DNA from: Methanobacteriaceae archaeon
GTDB taxonomy: Archaea; Methanobacteriota; Methanobacteria; Methanobacteriales; Methanobacteriaceae
Assembly: GCA_020854915.1 (NCBI GenBank)
Contig: JAHKLT010000033.1
Location: forward strand, 1-53,839
Direction: 5' to 3'
DNA length: 53,839 bases
A model generated the notes under the pieces. The model was given only the letters and a program-made list of their open reading frames with translations, was not told the origin of the DNA and searched no databases. Below are positions 37,125 to 45,508 of the stretch, piece after piece (the stretch's first letter is position 1; every line of letters begins with the position of its first letter). Position numbers and translations under genes: made by a program.

Positions 37125-37844
37125 ATGAAAATAATTTCAGTAGTTGGTAAAAAAAATAGTGGTAAAACTTCATTGACTATTAAAATAATCAAAGAACTTA
37201 AAAAAAGGAATTATAAAGTAGCTACTATTAAGGATTCCCATCATAAAATGGAAATGGATAGAGAAAATACAGATACATGGAAACACAAAGAAGCAGGATC
37301 TGAAATTATAATAGGTGTAGGTGAAACAAGTTTTATAAATATACAAGAAAGATTAAGCCTTGAAAGGTTATTATTTTTAATCAAAATATTAGAAGAGCCT
37401 GATTTTGTAGTTATAGAAGGATTTAAAGAATATAAATATTCTAAAATAGCTACTTCTAAAGAATCATTTGATGATTATACAATACAATATGTTGATTCTT
37501 TTAATATAACAGATGATGAAATTGTAAATTTAGTAGATGAAATTGAAAATAAAAGTTATGATATTTTAAACACATTATTTATAAATAATTGTGGATTTAA
37601 TGATGGTGAATCAATAGCTAAAGGAATAATTAATGAAAAAATAGAATTAGAAGATCTAGATAAAACTAATGTTAATTTATCAATTGATGGAAAAGTTATT
37701 GGTTTAAATAAATTTGTAAATAAATTCATTAGTGATACTATAATGGGTATGTTAAATTCACTAAAAACTAAAGAATATTCTGCAGATAAAAAAGAAAAAA
37801 TAGAAATAATCATTAACAATAAAAAGGAAATGAATGATGAGTGA
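37125..37844 (+). CDS. mobB: molybdopterin-guanine dinucleotide protein MobB
   Basis: A GTP-binding partner in the making of the guanine dinucleotide form of the W/Mo cofactor. The 239-residue protein has a P-loop ([12 protein letters not shown]), [20 protein letters not shown] with the DT.. motif, GAxxI.. ([11 protein letters not shown]), and [14 protein letters not shown]. The C-terminal 80 residues, including [19 protein letters not shown] and [17 protein letters not shown], are an extra domain seen in methanogen MobB. It overlaps moaA by 11 bases. Fwd, encoded divergently, needs this cofactor. Confidence 0.88.
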
Positions 37845-38768
37845 ATTTAAAACAAAGGATAGATATGAACGACCTATTATTTCACTTAGAATTTCAATAA
37901 CAACAAGATGTAATTTAAACTGTGTTTATTGCCATCACGATGGAATGCTTCCTTCAAATGATGAAATAACACCGGATGAAATATATTTAATATGTAAAAT
38001 TGCAAAATCTTTAGGGATTAGTAAAATAAGAATCTCTGGTGGTGAACCATTAATAAGAAAAGACATTATCGAAATCATCTCTAAAATAGCTAGCTTAAAT
38101 TTTAAAGATATCTCAATTACAACAAATGGAACTTTATTAGAAGATTATGCTTTAGAGCTTAAAAACGCTGGATTAAACAGAGCAAATATTAGTTTAGATA
38201 GCTTAAAAGATAAAACTTATAAATTTATAAGCGGTAAAAATTGTTTAGATAAAGTTAAAAAAGGTATAATTAAAGCAGTAGAAGTTGGACTCTATCCTGT
38301 TAAAATTAATATGGTTTTAATGAAAAATATCAATGATAAGGAAGTTTTTGATGTTTTTAAATTTACAAAGAAACATGGAGCTATTTACAATTAATAGAGC
38401 TAGTTAAAAGTGAAAATTGTGATAATAGCTATTTTAACGAAGAATATCATTATGATTTAAAAGATTTGGAGAGCATATTAGAAAAAAGAGCTAGTGATAT
38501 TAAGGTTAGAGAGTATATGCAAAATAGAAAGAAATATTTTATAGATGATGGAGAATTAGAAGTAGTACACCCAATAGATAATAGTGATTTTTGTAGTAAC
38601 TGTACTCGCCTTAGAATAAGTCCTGAAGGTAAAATAAAACCTTGCTTACTTAAAAATGATAATTTAATAGATTTTGTTAAATTTATAAGAGAAGGATATT
38701 CACAAAAAGAATTAAAAAAAATTTTTTTAAATGGTATTAATAAAAGGGAACCATATTATAAAAATTAA
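37834..38768 (+). pseudogene. moaA: molybdopterin biosynthesis MoaA, single-base frameshift
   Basis: A radical SAM protein for the first step of molybdopterin synthesis (GTP to cyclic pyranopterin). The first part (186 codons) has [15 protein letters not shown] with the SAM cluster, ISGGEPLIR and ITTNGTLL. It stops at 38392 after KKHGAIYN. The +1 frame from 38386 continues as [18 protein letters not shown] into the next frame through EYMQNRKKYFIDDG, DFCSNCTRLRISPEGKIKPC (the second cluster) and on to 38768. One added T in the TTT at 38384-38386 restores a 311-residue protein of normal length. The lesion may be real, a sequencing error or a translational slip. Genes that need this cofactor surround it, which argues that moaA function is required. 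Confidence 0.85.
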
Positions 38769-38823: not shown

Positions 38824-39606
38824 TTATTTTCTTCTTAAATATACAAACCAATAAATAACTGCAACAAAAATAGCTCCACCAACAATATTACCTAATGTAA
38901 CTGGAATTAAGTTGTTGAACATATCCATTACTGTAATATCTCCTCCTAAAAATATAGCTAGTGGCAAATAAAACATATTAGCAACACAATGCTCAAATCC
39001 AATAGCTGCAAAAGCCATAATTGGGAACCATATAGCAAAAATTTTACTTATTATATCTTCTGCTGCAAAAGCAAGATAGACTGCAAGACATACTAACCAA
39101 TTACAACCTATACCTCTGAGGAATGATTGATCCCAAGATAGTGCAACTTTTTTACTAGCTAATGTTATTACTCCTTCAGAATACAATGCATCACCCATCA
39201 TTCCAGCTAGATACACAAGAACAAAACCAACAAATATAGCTCCTACAAAGTTAAATATCCAACTTAATGACCAATTTCTAATAAGACTTGTAATACTTGC
39301 CTTTTTCTCTAATATTCCAAAAGTCATATACATTGTATTTCCAGTAAATAATTCAGAACCAGCAATAAGAACTATTATCAAACCAACTGGAAACACTGCA
39401 CCATAAATAAGTCTTATTAATCCAATAGGATATCCAGCATCAGCCATACCAGTAACTGACATTTGGGCAAGCATTCCCCCAAAAGCAACATAAGCCCCTG
39501 CTAAAATTGCAAGTATAATTGTGTTTATAACAGGAGACTTGTCTTTTATACCACCAGTATCTGCAATTGCTTTTGCAGTTTCTTGTGGTGTTTTATACGA
39601 ACTCAT
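38824..39606 (-). CDS. fdhC: formate transporter FdhC (FNT family)
   Basis: A pentameric formate channel, here with 260 residues and six membrane helices. Family marks are the GAYVAFGGMLAQ helix, the broken helix region GSELFTGNTMYM (about residue 85), and a His-containing region GFEHCVANMFYLPLAI that matches the FNT central His. No formate dehydrogenase gene is next to it. A strong GGTGAAA site precedes the ATG. The downstream neighbour on the other strand is moaA; the upstream gap carries a perfect inverted repeat next to box A. Confidence 0.94.
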   Translation of the reverse strand: MSSYKTPQETAKAIADTGGIKDKSPVINTIILAILAGAYVAFGGMLAQMSVTGMADAGYPIGLIRLIYGAVFPVGLIIVLIAGSELFTGNTMYMTFGILEKKASITSLIRNWSLSWIFNFVGAIFVGFVLVYLAGMMGDALYSEGVITLASKKVALSWDQSFLRGIGCNWLVCLAVYLAFAAEDIISKIFAIWFPIMAFAAIGFEHCVANMFYLPLAIFLGGDITVMDMFNNLIPVTLGNIVGGAIFVAVIYWFVYLRRK

Positions 39607-39759: not shown

Positions 39760-40068
39760 TTAATTGGAAACCATCACCAAATCACCAGTTTCTGGATCTT
39801 TAAAAACTTTACCTACTTCATTATACCCTTTATCTTCAACTTCACCTGTAGTACTAGAATCATTAGTAAATGAATCCCCAGTAACTACATTTTGAGATGA
39901 TTGAGAATCTTTAACATCACTAATTATATCAGGATGGGTACTTAAAGCCATAATGGCAAAAATCAAAAATCCTAGTGCTAAAACTAACATAGCATCTGAA
40001 AGATTTGCTATACCAGACATCGGATCATCATCTTCAGATTCTAAAAGTTTTTTTCTTTTTCTAAGCAT
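39760..40068 (-). CDS. DUF2149/ExbD-like membrane protein
   Basis: A 102-residue protein with one N-terminal membrane helix (ANLSDAMLVLALGFLIFAI) and an extracellular tail ending GKVFKDPETGDLVMV. The Asp at the entrance of the helix (SDAMLVLAL) is in the place of the proton-binding Asp of ExbD/TolR (IDVMLVLL). It is the small partner of the ExbB-like channel at 40061-40711, overlapping it by 8 bases. Start ATG 40068 is preceded by GGTGATTTTA; ATGs at 40080 and 40083 are less likely. I recall the trio DUF2149, ExbB and DUF2162 beside CobN-like or Hmu proteins in other prokaryotes. Confidence 0.8.
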   Translation of the reverse strand: MLRKRKKLLESEDDDPMSGIANLSDAMLVLALGFLIFAIMALSTHPDIISDVKDSQSSQNVVTGDSFTNDSSTTGEVEDKGYNEVGKVFKDPETGDLVMVSN

Positions 40069-40711
40069 TAAAATCACCATCATTTAAAGATTCAAGTTCA
40101 GCTTCAGCTATTGCTTCAACAGTAGAAACATCATTTTCATACCATTGTTTTTTAAATTTAGAAATCAAATAAGCAATTGCACCAATAGATAATCCTAATA
40201 CAGTAGTATCAAATGCTATTATTAAAGATTCAGCTAAAGTAGCAATATCTCCAGAACCTAAAGCTGCAAGACCTGGGCCTAAAGGAATTAAAGTTCCAAG
40301 AAGTCCTAAAATAGGTGCTAATCTAATTAAAACATCTGTTTTAGAAGTATTTTTAATTAAATTTAGTTCTTCTTCTCCAATTAATTTGCTTGCTAATGCT
40401 TTTCTAGCATCAATCCCAATATCATGATTATTAGCTATTTTAATTAAGATATCTTTTTGATAAATAAAGAGATTACTATTATTAATTATACCTTTAATAT
40501 CATTAGGCTTTGAAAGAGAAATCTCTCTAATTAATTTTTCTAATTCTTTAGAATCAATCGGTTTTCTAGATATTGCCTCATTAATAAAAGAACCTAACGA
40601 CAATATAACAATTACTAAAAATATTATTAAGATTAATATAACTGGAGTAAGTAAACTTTCCGATATAATATGTATTAAAGACGTTAATGTTTCTGTACCT
40701 TGTAAAATCAT
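40061..40711 (-). CDS. MotA/TolQ/ExbB proton channel family protein
   Basis: A 216-residue protein with three hydrophobic segments: near the N-terminus (PVILILIIFLVIVILSLGSF), a central one (LIRLAPILGLLGTLIPLGPG), and a third (ESLIIAFDTTVLGLSIGAIA). The last two match the conserved core of ExbB/TolQ. It would conduct protons with the DUF2149 protein to drive a mechanical task. The gene starts 9 bases after the DUF2162-like gene ends. Confidence 0.88.
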   Translation of the reverse strand: MILQGTETLTSLIHIISESLLTPVILILIIFLVIVILSLGSFINEAISRKPIDSKELEKLIREISLSKPNDIKGIINNSNLFIYQKDILIKIANNHDIGIDARKALASKLIGEEELNLIKNTSKTDVLIRLAPILGLLGTLIPLGPGLAALGSGDIATLAESLIIAFDTTVLGLSIGAIAYLISKFKKQWYENDVSTVEAIAEAELESLNDGDFNA

Positions 40712-40720
40712 TTAAGAACC

Positions 40721-41392
40721 TCATCTAAATTTTTTTTTCATTTCTTGATCATTTAAATATAATCCAATAAGTAATAAAGTTACAATACCAATAGCAATAT
40801 AAATTAATTTATATGTAGGAGTTAATATTAAAAAGGAATTAAACATTGAATAATCTAAATTTTTAATAGAATCATAAGTTAAAGCAGACAAAAAGAAAAA
40901 AATAGATTGTAAAATAATAAATTCACTAATTAATAATGGAAATGGTTTTTGAGCATATTTTAATAAATTTGACATGAAAAAAGATAAAAATATACTTATT
41001 ACTAAAACCAATCCAAGAAATATAATAAACAAAACATCATTAGCAAAAATAAGATTTAATATAATAGCTAGTGTAAAAAGTGAAAAAATAGCTAAAATCA
41101 AAGGATTATATGATGAAAAATCTTTTTTATAATTTAAAATTAAAATTACACTAAACAATAATAGAAGAATAGCGATAATCAAAAATATGATATTTAAATA
41201 GCTATTTAAAAAATTAAAATTAATATTAAATAATTTTATTAATATTAAAACGATAATAAAAATAAAAAATAAAAATAAACTATAAGCAGATGTTTTTTTA
41301 GGGTTTAAATTTTTATTAGAACATAGAAAACCATTATTTAAACCAATAAATATTATTGTAACAAATAAAAACCCTAAAATTAAATCATACAT
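40721..41392 (-). CDS. polytopic membrane protein, DUF2162-like
   Basis: A 223-residue protein with about seven membrane segments and few charged residues (for example ILGFLFVTIIFIGLNNGFLC at the N-terminus and YIAIGIVTLLLIGLYLND near the end). No catalytic motif is seen. The position next to ExbB- and DUF2149-like genes makes it the DUF2162-type partner I recall from other genomes. Exact family assignment is not provable here. The ATG follows AGAGATGTTTAA. Confidence 0.65.
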   Translation of the reverse strand: MYDLILGFLFVTIIFIGLNNGFLCSNKNLNPKKTSAYSLFLFFIFIIVLILIKLFNINFNFLNSYLNIIFLIIAILLLLFSVILILNYKKDFSSYNPLILAIFSLFTLAIILNLIFANDVLFIIFLGLVLVISIFLSFFMSNLLKYAQKPFPLLISEFIILQSIFFFLSALTYDSIKNLDYSMFNSFLILTPTYKLIYIAIGIVTLLLIGLYLNDQEMKKKFR

Positions 41393-41403
41393 TTAAACAT
41401 CTC

Positions 41404-43356
41404 TTAATTTTTTCTTCTTTTTGAAAGCATAATTTTAATATCTTTACTATAGTATACAATAATACTTAAGATTATAAGAATTATTAAAGTTCCAATTCCT
41501 GTAGCTCTAATAATCTCATCATCAATTTCTATTTTTTTAATAACACTTTCTTTTTCAGCTTTATTTTCAGAATTTAATGGTTTTGAAGAAGCATCAGAAG
41601 AGGGATTAGTATTTGAAGGAGCATTTGAAGAAGAAGTAGATGAACTTCCAATATCTGCCCCATCATTACTATTACTTCGACCTAAATTGACTTCATTAGA
41701 ATAAGCAGGATTGATAGCATTATTATTAGAATTTGTGGAGTTAGTTTCTTGTGGATTGAAATTATTATATTCTATATTTGCTTCATTATTATTAATATCG
41801 CCTCTATTAATATTATCATTATCATTTGGAAGAGATGGATTTTCTTTACTATCTTCAAAAGAATTATATTTAAAATATTTAGAATCTAATCCTGCAGATA
41901 GAGATAAAGAACCTCCATTTTTATTTAAACCATCAATGATAGCAGAAGATCCATCGAAATTAGTACTATGAAAATTTTTCCCATCATAAGTATAAACTAT
42001 ATCAAAGTTTGGAAGATTATTCTCCCCTCCTACAAATTCAACAATAACCTTAGAATCTTTTTGATTTAAAACCATAGAATATAATTTTACATTAATTTTA
42101 TGACAAATTTTTAAAAATGTATAATCAATACCACCAAACCAGTTATATCCAAAAGATATAGAATGATCATCATAGTATATACTATTTTTTGCTTGTAATT
42201 CCCATTCACCATTTCCAAAAATAGAATTTTCTTTTAAAACAAAATCTTTTCCATTATTTTTCCTATAACCTTCATTAATAGAAATCCCTTCATTTGAATT
42301 TTCACTAATGAGATTACTAAGAACATTTAATCCATCTACTTTAGAATTAACATTAATACCATATTCATTTTTAATGATTTTATTTCCAATGATTTCAAAG
42401 TTAATAGAATCTTTATTTAGGTTTATAGTATATCTCTCATTATAAGACAATAAGTTATTTTTAATACTGATTTTCTCATTATTTTCATTAACTAAAATCC
42501 CTTCATAATTATTGGAAATATTATTATCCATAATAAAAGAATTTTTTGAATTAAACAATATTATACCATACTTATTCTTAAAAATAGAATTATTAAATAT
42601 ATTAATATTTAAAACATTATTTAATAAAATTCCATTAGTATTATCATATAAAAGATTATTAAATATACGTATATTCGATGAATTAATAATTTCAATTCCA
42701 TTTAGACCTTTAGCTATTTTAAATCCAGAAATTTTAGAATTATGTGAATTTTTAAATTTAAAAACAGAATCAGAACCTTTACCATTTAAAGTAGTTCCAA
42801 CATAACTAATAATATTCAGTTGTTTTGAAATTAGAATGGAAATGTTATTATAATATTCTCCAATAAACACTATAGTAGAATTTTCACTAGCTAAATCAAT
42901 AATATCTTGTATTTCTTCATTATCCATATCTTCTAAAATATATATAGTAGAATTTTCTCCTATACTACTAATATTATTAATGATTTTTTTATTATCTTTA
43001 AATTCTGTATTAAAATTGATTTTATCAGAATTTAAATCATTATTATAATCAGTTATTTCTTTTTCATCTATTATTTGATTATAATTTATTTCAGTATCAT
43101 TATAATTAATCGATTTATTGTCTAATGGTTTATTATTAATTAATAATTTATCTTCATTATTTGAAAATGAATCATTAAAATAACTTGGTTTTTCATCAAT
43201 ATACATATCGGATCCAAATAAAACCACATCATCATTAGAAAATTTAAAATCCTTATTTAATGTAGAATTAGAATTTTCAGAAGATACAGCATTAATATTA
43301 GTTATTGAAGTGATGATTATCAATAATAAGAACAATAAAAATATTTTATTTCCAAT
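41404..43356 (-). CDS. membrane-anchored beta-helix surface protein
   Basis: Residues 1-25 are a signal peptide. A parallel beta-helix follows (about 130-400), with many NNIS.N and IFNN-type turns (NSSNIRIFNNLLYDNTNG, NIFNNSIFKNKYGI). A Ser/Asn-rich linker (about 500-600) leads to a C-terminal membrane helix (GTLIILIILSIIVYYS) with a basic tail, so it is anchored and faces outward. The strong GGAGGTGA site at about 43360-43368 is 5 bases before an in-frame ATT at 43354-43356; MGNKIFLLFLLL then makes a proper n-region with Lys. The next in-frame starts (TTG at 43335) are too far. It is the first gene of the ExbB/DUF2149/DUF2162 operon. 650 residues. Confidence 0.78.
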   Translation of the reverse strand: MGNKIFLLFLLLIIITSITNINAVSSENSNSTLNKDFKFSNDDVVLFGSDMYIDEKPSYFNDSFSNNEDKLLINNKPLDNKSINYNDTEINYNQIIDEKEITDYNNDLNSDKINFNTEFKDNKKIINNISSIGENSTIYILEDMDNEEIQDIIDLASENSTIVFIGEYYNNISILISKQLNIISYVGTTLNGKGSDSVFKFKNSHNSKISGFKIAKGLNGIEIINSSNIRIFNNLLYDNTNGILLNNVLNINIFNNSIFKNKYGIILFNSKNSFIMDNNISNNYEGILVNENNEKISIKNNLLSYNERYTINLNKDSINFEIIGNKIIKNEYGINVNSKVDGLNVLSNLISENSNEGISINEGYRKNNGKDFVLKENSIFGNGEWELQAKNSIYYDDHSISFGYNWFGGIDYTFLKICHKINVKLYSMVLNQKDSKVIVEFVGGENNLPNFDIVYTYDGKNFHSTNFDGSSAIIDGLNKNGGSLSLSAGLDSKYFKYNSFEDSKENPSLPNDNDNINRGDINNNEANIEYNNFNPQETNSTNSNNNAINPAYSNEVNLGRSNSNDGADIGSSSTSSSNAPSNTNPSSDASSKPLNSENKAEKESVIKKIEIDDEIIRATGIGTLIILIILSIIVYYSKDIKIMLSKRRKN

Positions 43357-43607
43357 ATTTTCACCTCCTTTTAAAGTTTATTATAATTATAATAGTTTTT
43401 TTATAGTCTAAAACATAAAAACATTTCGAATTGAATTCAAGTTAAATTCGTTATAAAAACATTTATTTAGCATAAAAAGATAAAAATAGTTTTAAAAAGA
43501 AAAATTAAAATTAAAAACTATATTTATTTTAAAAATAATCTTGAAATTAAGTTTAAAACCAAAATAAAAAAATAATTATGTTTTTTTATTAAATGAAATT
43601 AATAAAA

Positions 43608-43687: not shown

Positions 43688-45508
43688 ATGAATATTAAAA
43701 AAATTACTCTTCCTTTATTAATATTATTCATCTTAGCTACATCAATTTCAATGGTAGCTGCAGAAAATGTAGCTGTAGATAATATAGCTACAGAATATGA
43801 TAGTATAGAAGAAGTTGAAGAAGTTAATAATGTTGAATCAGCATCATATGCTGATAGTTCAAGTAATTATATAGATATGGATGAATATAAGATTGTTAAT
43901 GAAAATCCTGCAGTAATAACTGCTCAAAATAGTGAGAACATCCATAATGTGAATGATACTTATACTAATTCAGAAATTCAAACAGTAATAAATAATGCTG
44001 CAAGTGGAGATACTATTTCTTTTGCTGAAGGTAACTACAATAATATTTCTTTAAGTGTTGATAAAACATTGAAATTTGTAGGTGCAGGTATTAATAAAAC
44101 AAACTTGTATTCTACAAGTGCAGATGATGCTGACATGTTTAATGTTAAAACAAGTATTGATTCCATAGATGGAACTTCATTTAAAGGCATGAGTTTCCAC
44201 ATAATGGCTTCTACTGATTGGAATGGTCGTGGAATATACATTGAAGGTGGAAAAGATATTGTCGTAGATAGCTGTGCTTTTATAAATGGTAATGCTGGAG
44301 TTTATTTAAGAAGTAATAAAGGTAATACATTAGTTACTAACTGTTTCTTTACAGGAGATACAAATAGAAGTACTATTCATACAACAAATGAAGTAGGAAC
44401 TAAAGCTGTAAATATTATGGGTGGAGATGGAATTCGTGTTACAAATAATACTTTCATGGGGTCTGTTTTAGATGGTGTTTCTATTGCATCAAACTCTAAA
44501 AATGTTTATGTTGGAGAAAATAAATTCATTGATAACATTTATGGTATCTTCTTTGGTGGAGGATTAGTTAATATAAGTGTTGATAAAAATTTATTCGAAA
44601 ATATAGAAGTATATGCAGTAGGACTTGCAAAAGCTGCTAGTTACAGTAAAGTAACAAATAACACATTCATTTTAGCTAATAAATCAATAGCTGTTTACTT
44701 AGAACAAGGAAATACTGCTCATGGAGCTCCAACTAATATTAAAGAAGTATATATAAATGGAAATTCCTTTAAAGCAGCATCTAATGCAAATCCATTTTCT
44801 ATTAATGCAGTATATGTTAAAAGTCAAAATGGACCATTGCAAGTACAAGGTGCTTTAGAAGTAAGAAAAAATACATTAGATGGTGGAATAAAATTATTCG
44901 AATTCTTTAATGATGGATGGTTAGATGGTGATGATATTGTTATTAAACCTGAAACTTTAAACAGTACTATATCAGGTAAAAATGTTACAATTATCTCATC
45001 TGTTGGAAATAGATTCGAAGTTGTTGTAAAAGATCAAAATGGAAAAGTAGTTGTTGGAGAAAATGTAACTTTTGAAATTAATGGAGTTAAATATAACAGA
45101 ACCAGTGATGAAAACGGTGTTGCAGGTTTAAATATTAACCTTAACACTGGAAATTACACAATTACTGCTGCATATGGTGGTACACAATATCTTAATCCAA
45201 GTAAGGAAACTTACACTATTACTACAGTTCCAGGTATGACCCAGTTAATTGGAGAGAATGCTAATTTCACAGAAAAAGGTTCCAAATATACAACAAAACT
45301 AGTTGATGCAAGAGGAAATGCATTACCTGGAGAAGTTGTTTCAATTACTATCAATGGTTTAACCTATTATAAAACTACTGATGAAAATGGAATCGCTTCT
45401 TTAAATATTAATTTAATTAAAGGAATATATTCTATTTACAATAATTTTAGTGGTACTTATCAATATGCTGCAACAACTGGAGGAAACAGAATTACCACAA
45501 ATTGGTAA
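43688..45508 (+). CDS. secreted beta-helix protein with Ig-like domains
   Basis: Signal peptide (residues 1-25, ILFILATSISMVAAE), an acidic linker, a right-handed parallel beta-helix (about 95-385, with turns such as NTFMGSVLDGVSIASNS), and two C-terminal Ig-like (Big_1-type) domains, each with a G-x-Y-x-R/K-T-S/T-D-E-N-G pattern (YNRTSDENGVAGLNI, YKTTDENGIASLNI). The protein resembles Methanobrevibacter adhesin-like proteins, which sit on the cell surface and may mediate host or syntrophic contact. No C-terminal anchor or pseudomurein-binding repeat was seen, so how it is held is unknown. 606 residues; GGAGG ribosome site. Confidence 0.88.
   Translation: MNIKKITLPLLILFILATSISMVAAENVAVDNIATEYDSIEEVEEVNNVESASYADSSSNYIDMDEYKIVNENPAVITAQNSENIHNVNDTYTNSEIQTVINNAASGDTISFAEGNYNNISLSVDKTLKFVGAGINKTNLYSTSADDADMFNVKTSIDSIDGTSFKGMSFHIMASTDWNGRGIYIEGGKDIVVDSCAFINGNAGVYLRSNKGNTLVTNCFFTGDTNRSTIHTTNEVGTKAVNIMGGDGIRVTNNTFMGSVLDGVSIASNSKNVYVGENKFIDNIYGIFFGGGLVNISVDKNLFENIEVYAVGLAKAASYSKVTNNTFILANKSIAVYLEQGNTAHGAPTNIKEVYINGNSFKAASNANPFSINAVYVKSQNGPLQVQGALEVRKNTLDGGIKLFEFFNDGWLDGDDIVIKPETLNSTISGKNVTIISSVGNRFEVVVKDQNGKVVVGENVTFEINGVKYNRTSDENGVAGLNINLNTGNYTITAAYGGTQYLNPSKETYTITTVPGMTQLIGENANFTEKGSKYTTKLVDARGNALPGEVVSITINGLTYYKTTDENGIASLNINLIKGIYSIYNNFSGTYQYAATTGGNRITTNW

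Follow-up and report, generated by a model that had tools for sequence, protein, structure and literature searches.

Motors of the ExbB type are understood as passing force to the outer membrane or the cell wall; the methanogens of the family Methanobacteriaceae are expected to have neither an outer membrane nor peptidoglycan. Here, we describe a four-gene operon in a stretch of 53,839 nucleotides (the window; contig JAHKLT010000033.1 of assembly GCA_020854915.1, positions 1 to 53,839) from a gut methane-making archaeon of this family, which may encode a relative of the motor behind haem and iron uptake in Gram-negative bacteria. The closest described system is HmuTUV of the Bacteroidota haem operon hmuYRSTUV, in which HmuU corresponds to ExbB, HmuV to DUF2149, and HmuT presumably to DUF2162. 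HmuU and HmuV have been likened to ExbB and ExbD, HmuT and HmuV have been suggested to be diagnostic of haem transport, and 337 species carry T, U, and V but lack Y, R, and S (PMC10100974). The HmuTUV proteins have also been described as uncharacterized or putative (PMC13227078). Our literature search found no paper on DUF2149 or DUF2162 in methanogens, nor on an archaeal trio of this kind linked to a beta-helix protein.

According to the open reading frame (ORF) list of the window, all four genes lie on the minus strand, in the order anchored surface beta-helix protein (BH; 41404..43356), DUF2162-like protein with seven transmembrane (TM) helices (HmuT-like; 40721..41392), ExbB/MotA/TolQ-family protein (HmuU-like; 40061..40711), and DUF2149 protein with a single TM helix (HmuV-like; 39760..40068). 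BH and DUF2162 are separated by 11 bases and DUF2162 and ExbB by 9, and ExbB and DUF2149 overlap by 8 bases if the ATG at 40068 is taken as the start of the latter, in line with its orthologues (MLRKRxx). An initial annotation of this DNA, made from the sequence alone, had proposed four linked genes with gaps of 9 to 11 bases and an 8-base overlap, and strand, order, and spacing are all borne out. Its endpoint at 43368 was misplaced, since this is the first base of the ribosome-binding site of the first gene (GGAGGTG, 43362..43368, minus strand) and not a coding start. The four genes are real and conserved, and the arrangement is not due to chance given that dozens of species preserve the order of the trio of DUF2162, ExbB, and DUF2149.

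Judged by its sequence, the trio is an archaeal form of HmuTUV. This kinship had been pointed out in the initial annotation and agrees with the hmuYRSTUV operon of P. gingivalis, which encodes CobN, a hypothetical protein, ExbB, and DUF2149 (PMC10434189). The ExbB protein matches Pfam MotA_ExbB with 39.8 bits (cut-off, 22.9), and its Thr140 and Thr170, which are invariant in both trio classes distinguished below, align with the threonine ring of ExbB formed by Thr148 and Thr181, the roles of which have been described (PMC7014051). The DUF2149 protein matches its Pfam family with 47.5 bits (cut-off, 27.1). Asp30 (107-residue numbering), located at the mouth of the TM helix, is present in all 76 archaeal family members, is invariant in a set of 14 sequences that includes bacterial members, and aligns with Asp25 of ExbD, so the likeness to the ExbD aspartate noted initially stands. 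The protein also has a conserved extracellular tail (GxVYKDPxTGxLxMV). The DUF2162 match (32.9 bits) falls just below the Pfam cut-off of 34.4 and the name is therefore marginal by sequence, but it is backed by synteny and seven predicted helices, which the structural model also contains (pLDDT, 88). A fold search of the Protein Data Bank (PDB) with this model gave no usable match, the best being transporters of the major facilitator type (E, 0.24), and searches of PDB sequences with the DUF2149 and DUF2162 profiles gave no meaningful match; likewise, none of the trio proteins matched an NCBIfam model. With the window ExbB as a single query, the only PDB matches were to fused recA over a 27-residue stretch, which we took to be spurious.

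Relatives were sought among 139 Methanobacteriaceae genomes, 123 of which encode DUF2149, many in several copies. Identity to the window ExbB was bimodal: 57 genomes hold a copy of 58 to 100% identity, hereafter the w class, and all other copies are at or below 53%. One outlier (locus L098), at 53% identity, falls within the w class in the tree. The named records with w-class ExbB alignments are Methanobrevibacter, one being labelled just "archaeon," and more distant ExbB matches come in part from Gram-positive bacteria in which CobN adjoins the trio. We annotated 82 neighborhoods by sequence search and hydropathy, so that partner labels are automatic, and many of these loci are fragments of metagenome-assembled genomes with contig edges. 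In the window and 18 other w-class loci from several genera, including L098, the gene upstream of DUF2162 encodes an anchored BH, which upholds the earlier suggestion that BH is a kept partner of the trio. The alternative upstream set encodes an importer consisting of a periplasmic binding protein, a FecCD permease, and an ATPase, followed by FmdE, with FdhD beside it where checked (Pfam). A quickly built tree of ExbB plus DUF2149, in which some forks are open and some branches long, places loci with the BH arrangement throughout the w class and gathers those with the importer arrangement, about 33 loci, into a single clade; on a parsimony reading, BH adjacency would thus be the older state. 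Genomes in which the trio stands beside the importer carry their BH gene at a separate place, often on the same strand at a distance of about 20 kb. The parts also occur together. L098 holds, in one run, a secreted BH, an anchored BH, the trio, a further gene, and the complete importer set with FmdE; in L050 and L055, the importer precedes the trio and the BH gene follows it; and in L217, the importer is directly followed by a BH gene with the tail described below, without the trio.

Trios with other neighbors were encountered as well. In L176, L186, and L191, the trio follows CbiM-like genes and a gene for a large anchored protein. A similar set on another contig of the window genome (C75; L131, 1683-6151) encodes CbiM and a 903-residue anchored protein that has two FmdE domains, with no trio in the stretch read. 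In the Gram-positive loci L195, L202, and L208, an ExbB-DUF2149 pair without DUF2162 lies beside a FecCD/ATPase/binding-protein importer or its binding protein.

BH is also linked to the motor genes through its C terminus. In its 643-residue form, BH has a signal peptide, a beta-helix at about residues 128 to 384 (Pfam NosD/Beta_helix, 56/55 bits), a beta-rich and less certain part up to about residue 478, an Asn/Ser-rich disordered linker at about 468 to 606, and a single C-terminal membrane helix. The AlphaFold2 model agrees, with a confident beta-helix at about 128 to 384, a disordered linker, and a TM helix at 606 to 628. A NosD-type role in copper maturation was rejected, because only the repeat matches (38 bits against an NCBIfam cut-off of 300). 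The juxtamembrane segment and anchor tail (KKIEIDDEIIRATGIGTLIILIILSIIVYYSKDIKIM...; 41404..41541, minus strand) of trio-linked BH proteins share the motif K-x-[ILV]-x-[ILV]-[DE]-[DE]-E ... G ... YYRxDI, and neither CobN proteins nor most of the other anchored surface proteins compared have a tail like it. Among w-class BH proteins, the tail is about 38 to 49% identical to that of the window and the body 28 to 35%, figures of a kind that hydrophobic segments inflate. A profile search of the 139 genomes found the tail essentially once per genome; the window genome has a second, weak match in another anchored protein (contig C28). The tail and a w-class ExbB are both present in 53 genomes and both absent from 74, with 4 genomes holding only the ExbB and 8 only the tail. 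The pattern persists within the largest genus (42 both, 1 ExbB only, 7 tail only, and 17 neither), where joint absence is visible. The corresponding Fisher values, 8e-25 and 1.6e-9, are inflated by shared ancestry. On this evidence, the tail is probably a docking element for the motor.

A possible purpose is suggested by the importer. In the window genome, a FecBCD-type importer is encoded next to FdhD on contig C59, unlinked to the operon. More generally, the neighborhood of w-class loci comprises genes for FdhD, formate dehydrogenase, and a formate transporter together with this importer, the binding protein of which matches MolA (HI_1472) among solved structures. These neighbors, the MolA-related binding protein, and FmdE, each of them circumstantial, point to molybdenum or tungsten (Mo/W), and we tentatively consider it possible, at rather less than even odds, that the cargo serves Mo/W enzymes such as formate and formylmethanofuran dehydrogenases. 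Of all parts of the model presented below, this one is the least secure.

Importer and operon respond together in published expression data from one relative. In RNA-seq of M. ruminantium M1 exposed to lauric acid, mru_0251 to mru_0253 rose by 2.06, 1.71, and 1.97 log2 units, mru_0327 by 1.73, mru_0329 by 1.56, and mru_0326 by 5.04, and the FdhC gene mru_0332 fell by 1.11, opposite to ExbB and BH (PMC5816558). The gene order of an M. ruminantium-like genome in our set (G018), which we infer from that order to be strain M1, fits ThiC as 0247, the binding protein as 0251, BH as 0327, ExbB as 0329, and the formate/nitrite transporter as 0332. Hence, the importer (mru_0251-0253), BH (mru_0327), and ExbB (mru_0329) are all induced by lauric acid. 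In G018 (L225-L226), the published numbering puts a prophage (mru_0256 integrase onward) between the importer operon and the BH-trio operon, which would be near neighbors without it.

Taken together, we propose, with a probability of roughly 0.45, that these genes code for an ion-driven, HmuTUV-type membrane motor that acts via the anchor of its own surface partner, BH, and thereby aids the capture and import of a metal compound. If homology to ExbB/ExbD is a guide, the stator would consist of ExbB subunits, with DUF2149 and its membrane-embedded aspartate as the moving or force-bearing core. The motor would act, directly or via DUF2162, on the membrane helix and juxtamembrane segment of BH, the beta-helix of which may project through the pseudomurein on its long flexible linker. 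The purpose that best fits these observations would be to capture a metal compound there and deliver it to the FecBCD-type, MolA-like ABC importer with FmdE. Methanogens draw on both sodium and proton gradients, either of which might drive such a motor.

Several points weigh against this proposal. The contact between BH and the motor is deduced from genes and sequence. Eight genomes hold a tail-bearing BH without a w-class ExbB, and the co-occurrence of the two is in part shared ancestry. The profile similarity between DUF2149 and ExbD is weak, covering 19 columns of the TM segment only at a probability of 4%, and DUF2149 lacks an ExbD-type periplasmic domain and has no match to ExbD (PF02472) in Pfam. 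The importer binding protein finds its best match not in MolA but in a structure whose description says no more than periplasmic binding protein, and binders of haem and B12 are among its weaker NCBIfam matches. Finally, other transporters, including ModAB and those for nickel and cobalt, also rose with lauric acid (PMC5816558), so the response is not specific.

The motor might instead move or tension BH itself in order to adhere, to bind glycans, or to touch partner cells, its association with the importer being indirect. BH resembles beta-helix polysaccharide lyases and epimerases and the streptococcal surface adhesin PfbA in PDB fold searches, matches that speak for the predicted fold and not for an activity. 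Furthermore, a secreted beta-helix/Ig-like protein without a C-terminal anchor (43688..45508, plus strand) is encoded divergently next to BH in every window-type locus with a readable upstream gene, and adhesin-like genes dominate the lauric acid response (PMC5816558). Against this, the BH tail stays with the FmdE importer even where the w-class ExbB is missing (L217), and L098 joins the whole set to the importer. We regard a mechanical surface role of this kind as unlikely.

Capture of haem, cobalt, or another tetrapyrrole in the manner of HmuSTUV, with BH in place of CobN, was the lead of the initial annotation. It draws on the kinship to HmuTUV, on the B12 and haem binders among substrate-binding proteins of the importer's class, and on other genes of the window genome, namely, a second trio of the canonical type (contig C45, L005), encoding a NifH-like protein, DUF2162 with APCPCC, ExbB, and DUF2149, and a sole CobN (contig C3) of 1,666 residues, anchored at the surface by a signal peptide and a C-terminal membrane helix. 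This CobN gene, however, lies away from both trios, and the neighbors of the window operon are formate and Mo/W genes and, in relatives, the MolA-like importer. Moreover, CobN-linked trios form a separate group on the tree, and their DUF2162 carries the motif PCP(C/F/L/A)C in 27 of 27 cases (12 of 12 in the archaeal set and 15 of 15 in a wider set), whereas the motif (PCPxC) is absent from DUF2162 of BH-, importer-, and CbiM-linked trios; as read from the alignments, it is lost in the window protein. Additional positives outside the CobN-linked set are L189, on a short contig, and the C45 trio. This split sets the window operon apart from the haem- or cobalt-type loci. Simple replacement of CobN by BH was rejected since the trio classes are separate, and the search for CobN near the trio in related genomes led to this other class and to none at the window locus. 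The haem/cobalt lead is weakened and finds no support at this locus, and we consider such a function quite improbable. With a canonical ExbB-ExbD pair on contig C67 (707-1579; L227, L228) in addition to the two trios, the window genome encodes three ExbB-type proteins.

Less probable still is a Tol/Mot-like role in the envelope, either in remodeling or stabilizing pseudomurein or in assisting surface proteins on their way through it. For this role, the weak best PDB matches of the ExbB profile (PomA), the expected lack of an outer membrane in this group, and induction by membrane-damaging lauric acid might be cited; against it stand the persistent link to a metal-type importer and the lack of a pseudomurein-binding domain in all four operon proteins, as searched with Pfam.

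The translation start of BH deserves mention. After the GGAGGTG site, BH likely starts at a near-cognate ATT (43354..43356, minus strand), a position that fits the orthologue alignment. Orthologues with the trio directly downstream have ATT, CTG, or ATA at the same aligned position, non-ATG wherever the site is readable, and those in other arrangements start with ATG (nine cases), ACG (one), or ATC (one). More broadly, anchored surface-protein genes show a strong GGAGGTGA-like site followed by an apparent near-cognate start (ATT, ATC, ATA, or CTG); this was seen at window positions 43354-43368 (minus strand), in L044, L048, L049, L052, L056, L057, L070, L085, L088, L089, L092, L094, and L218, and also in the CobN gene of L006. 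A scan for sigma-70 promoters and terminators gave no excess over shuffled sequences, with models that are not suited to archaea.

As for the flanking genes, the divergent secreted gene probably belongs to the same cluster as the operon, being kept beside it in relatives. Downstream, the conserved gene for a formate/nitrite transporter (FdhC-like; 38824..39606, minus strand; Pfam) is probably context and not part of the machine. A frameshift at about 38394 breaks a MoaA-like gene (37834-38768, plus strand) into 186 and then, in another frame, 100 residues; contig C64 of the same genome (L130) carries an intact MoaA-like ORF next to FdhAB. The closest relative (L007) has FdhAB between the formate transporter and MoaA, and the window lacks FdhAB at that spot.

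In a broader sense, one could imagine a Ton-like, ion-driven motor in single-membrane archaea, working with neither TonB nor an outer membrane, that pulls directly on the C-terminal anchor helix of a dedicated surface protein and so brings a compound of Mo/W or another metal through the wall for an ABC importer, with interchangeable partners such as BH, CobN, and possibly the large anchored protein beside CbiM, a generalization that we hold to be doubtful. Regardless, the partner defined here, with its dedicated tail, offers a handle on the role of such motors in single-membrane cells. If the cargo is indeed Mo/W, the system would bear on the trace-metal supply of methane producers in gut and rumen. 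The published view of HmuT and HmuV as diagnostic of haem transport (PMC10100974) needs to be qualified, as the trio has other partners here and the CobN-associated motif appears to be lost.

Compared with known systems, the operon shares with HmuTUV the three-protein set with an ExbB-like protein and a single-TM protein carrying an aspartate, but it lacks CobN/HmuS, a TonB receptor, and a hemophore; its DUF2162 is without PCPxC, its partner is an anchored beta-helix protein, and its host is expected to have a single membrane. The CobN-linked DUF2162-ExbB-DUF2149 loci of Methanobacteriaceae and Gram-positives have the same trio and a partner that likewise combines a signal peptide with a C-terminal membrane helix, but that partner is CobN with a different anchor tail, next to a PCPxC-type DUF2162 of a separate tree group. 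Similarity to ExbB-ExbD of the Ton system comprises the ExbB fold family, the pore threonines, and an aspartate at the same place in the partner helix (PMC7014051), whereas DUF2149 is without the ExbD periplasmic domain and the operon without TonB. As in the molybdate/tungstate importer MolABC (HI_1470-1472), the associated importer has a FecCD permease, an ATPase, and a binding protein that is a sequence relative of HI_1472; in contrast, it comes with FmdE, is unlinked to the operon in the window genome, and has a putative cargo. Finally, the adhesin-like proteins of Methanobrevibacter (PMC11532034) resemble BH in having a right-handed beta-helix and a membrane-anchoring helix, but BH has no Ig-like repeats recognized by Pfam, and its anchor is C terminal, with a dedicated conserved tail and a fixed genetic link to the putative motor.

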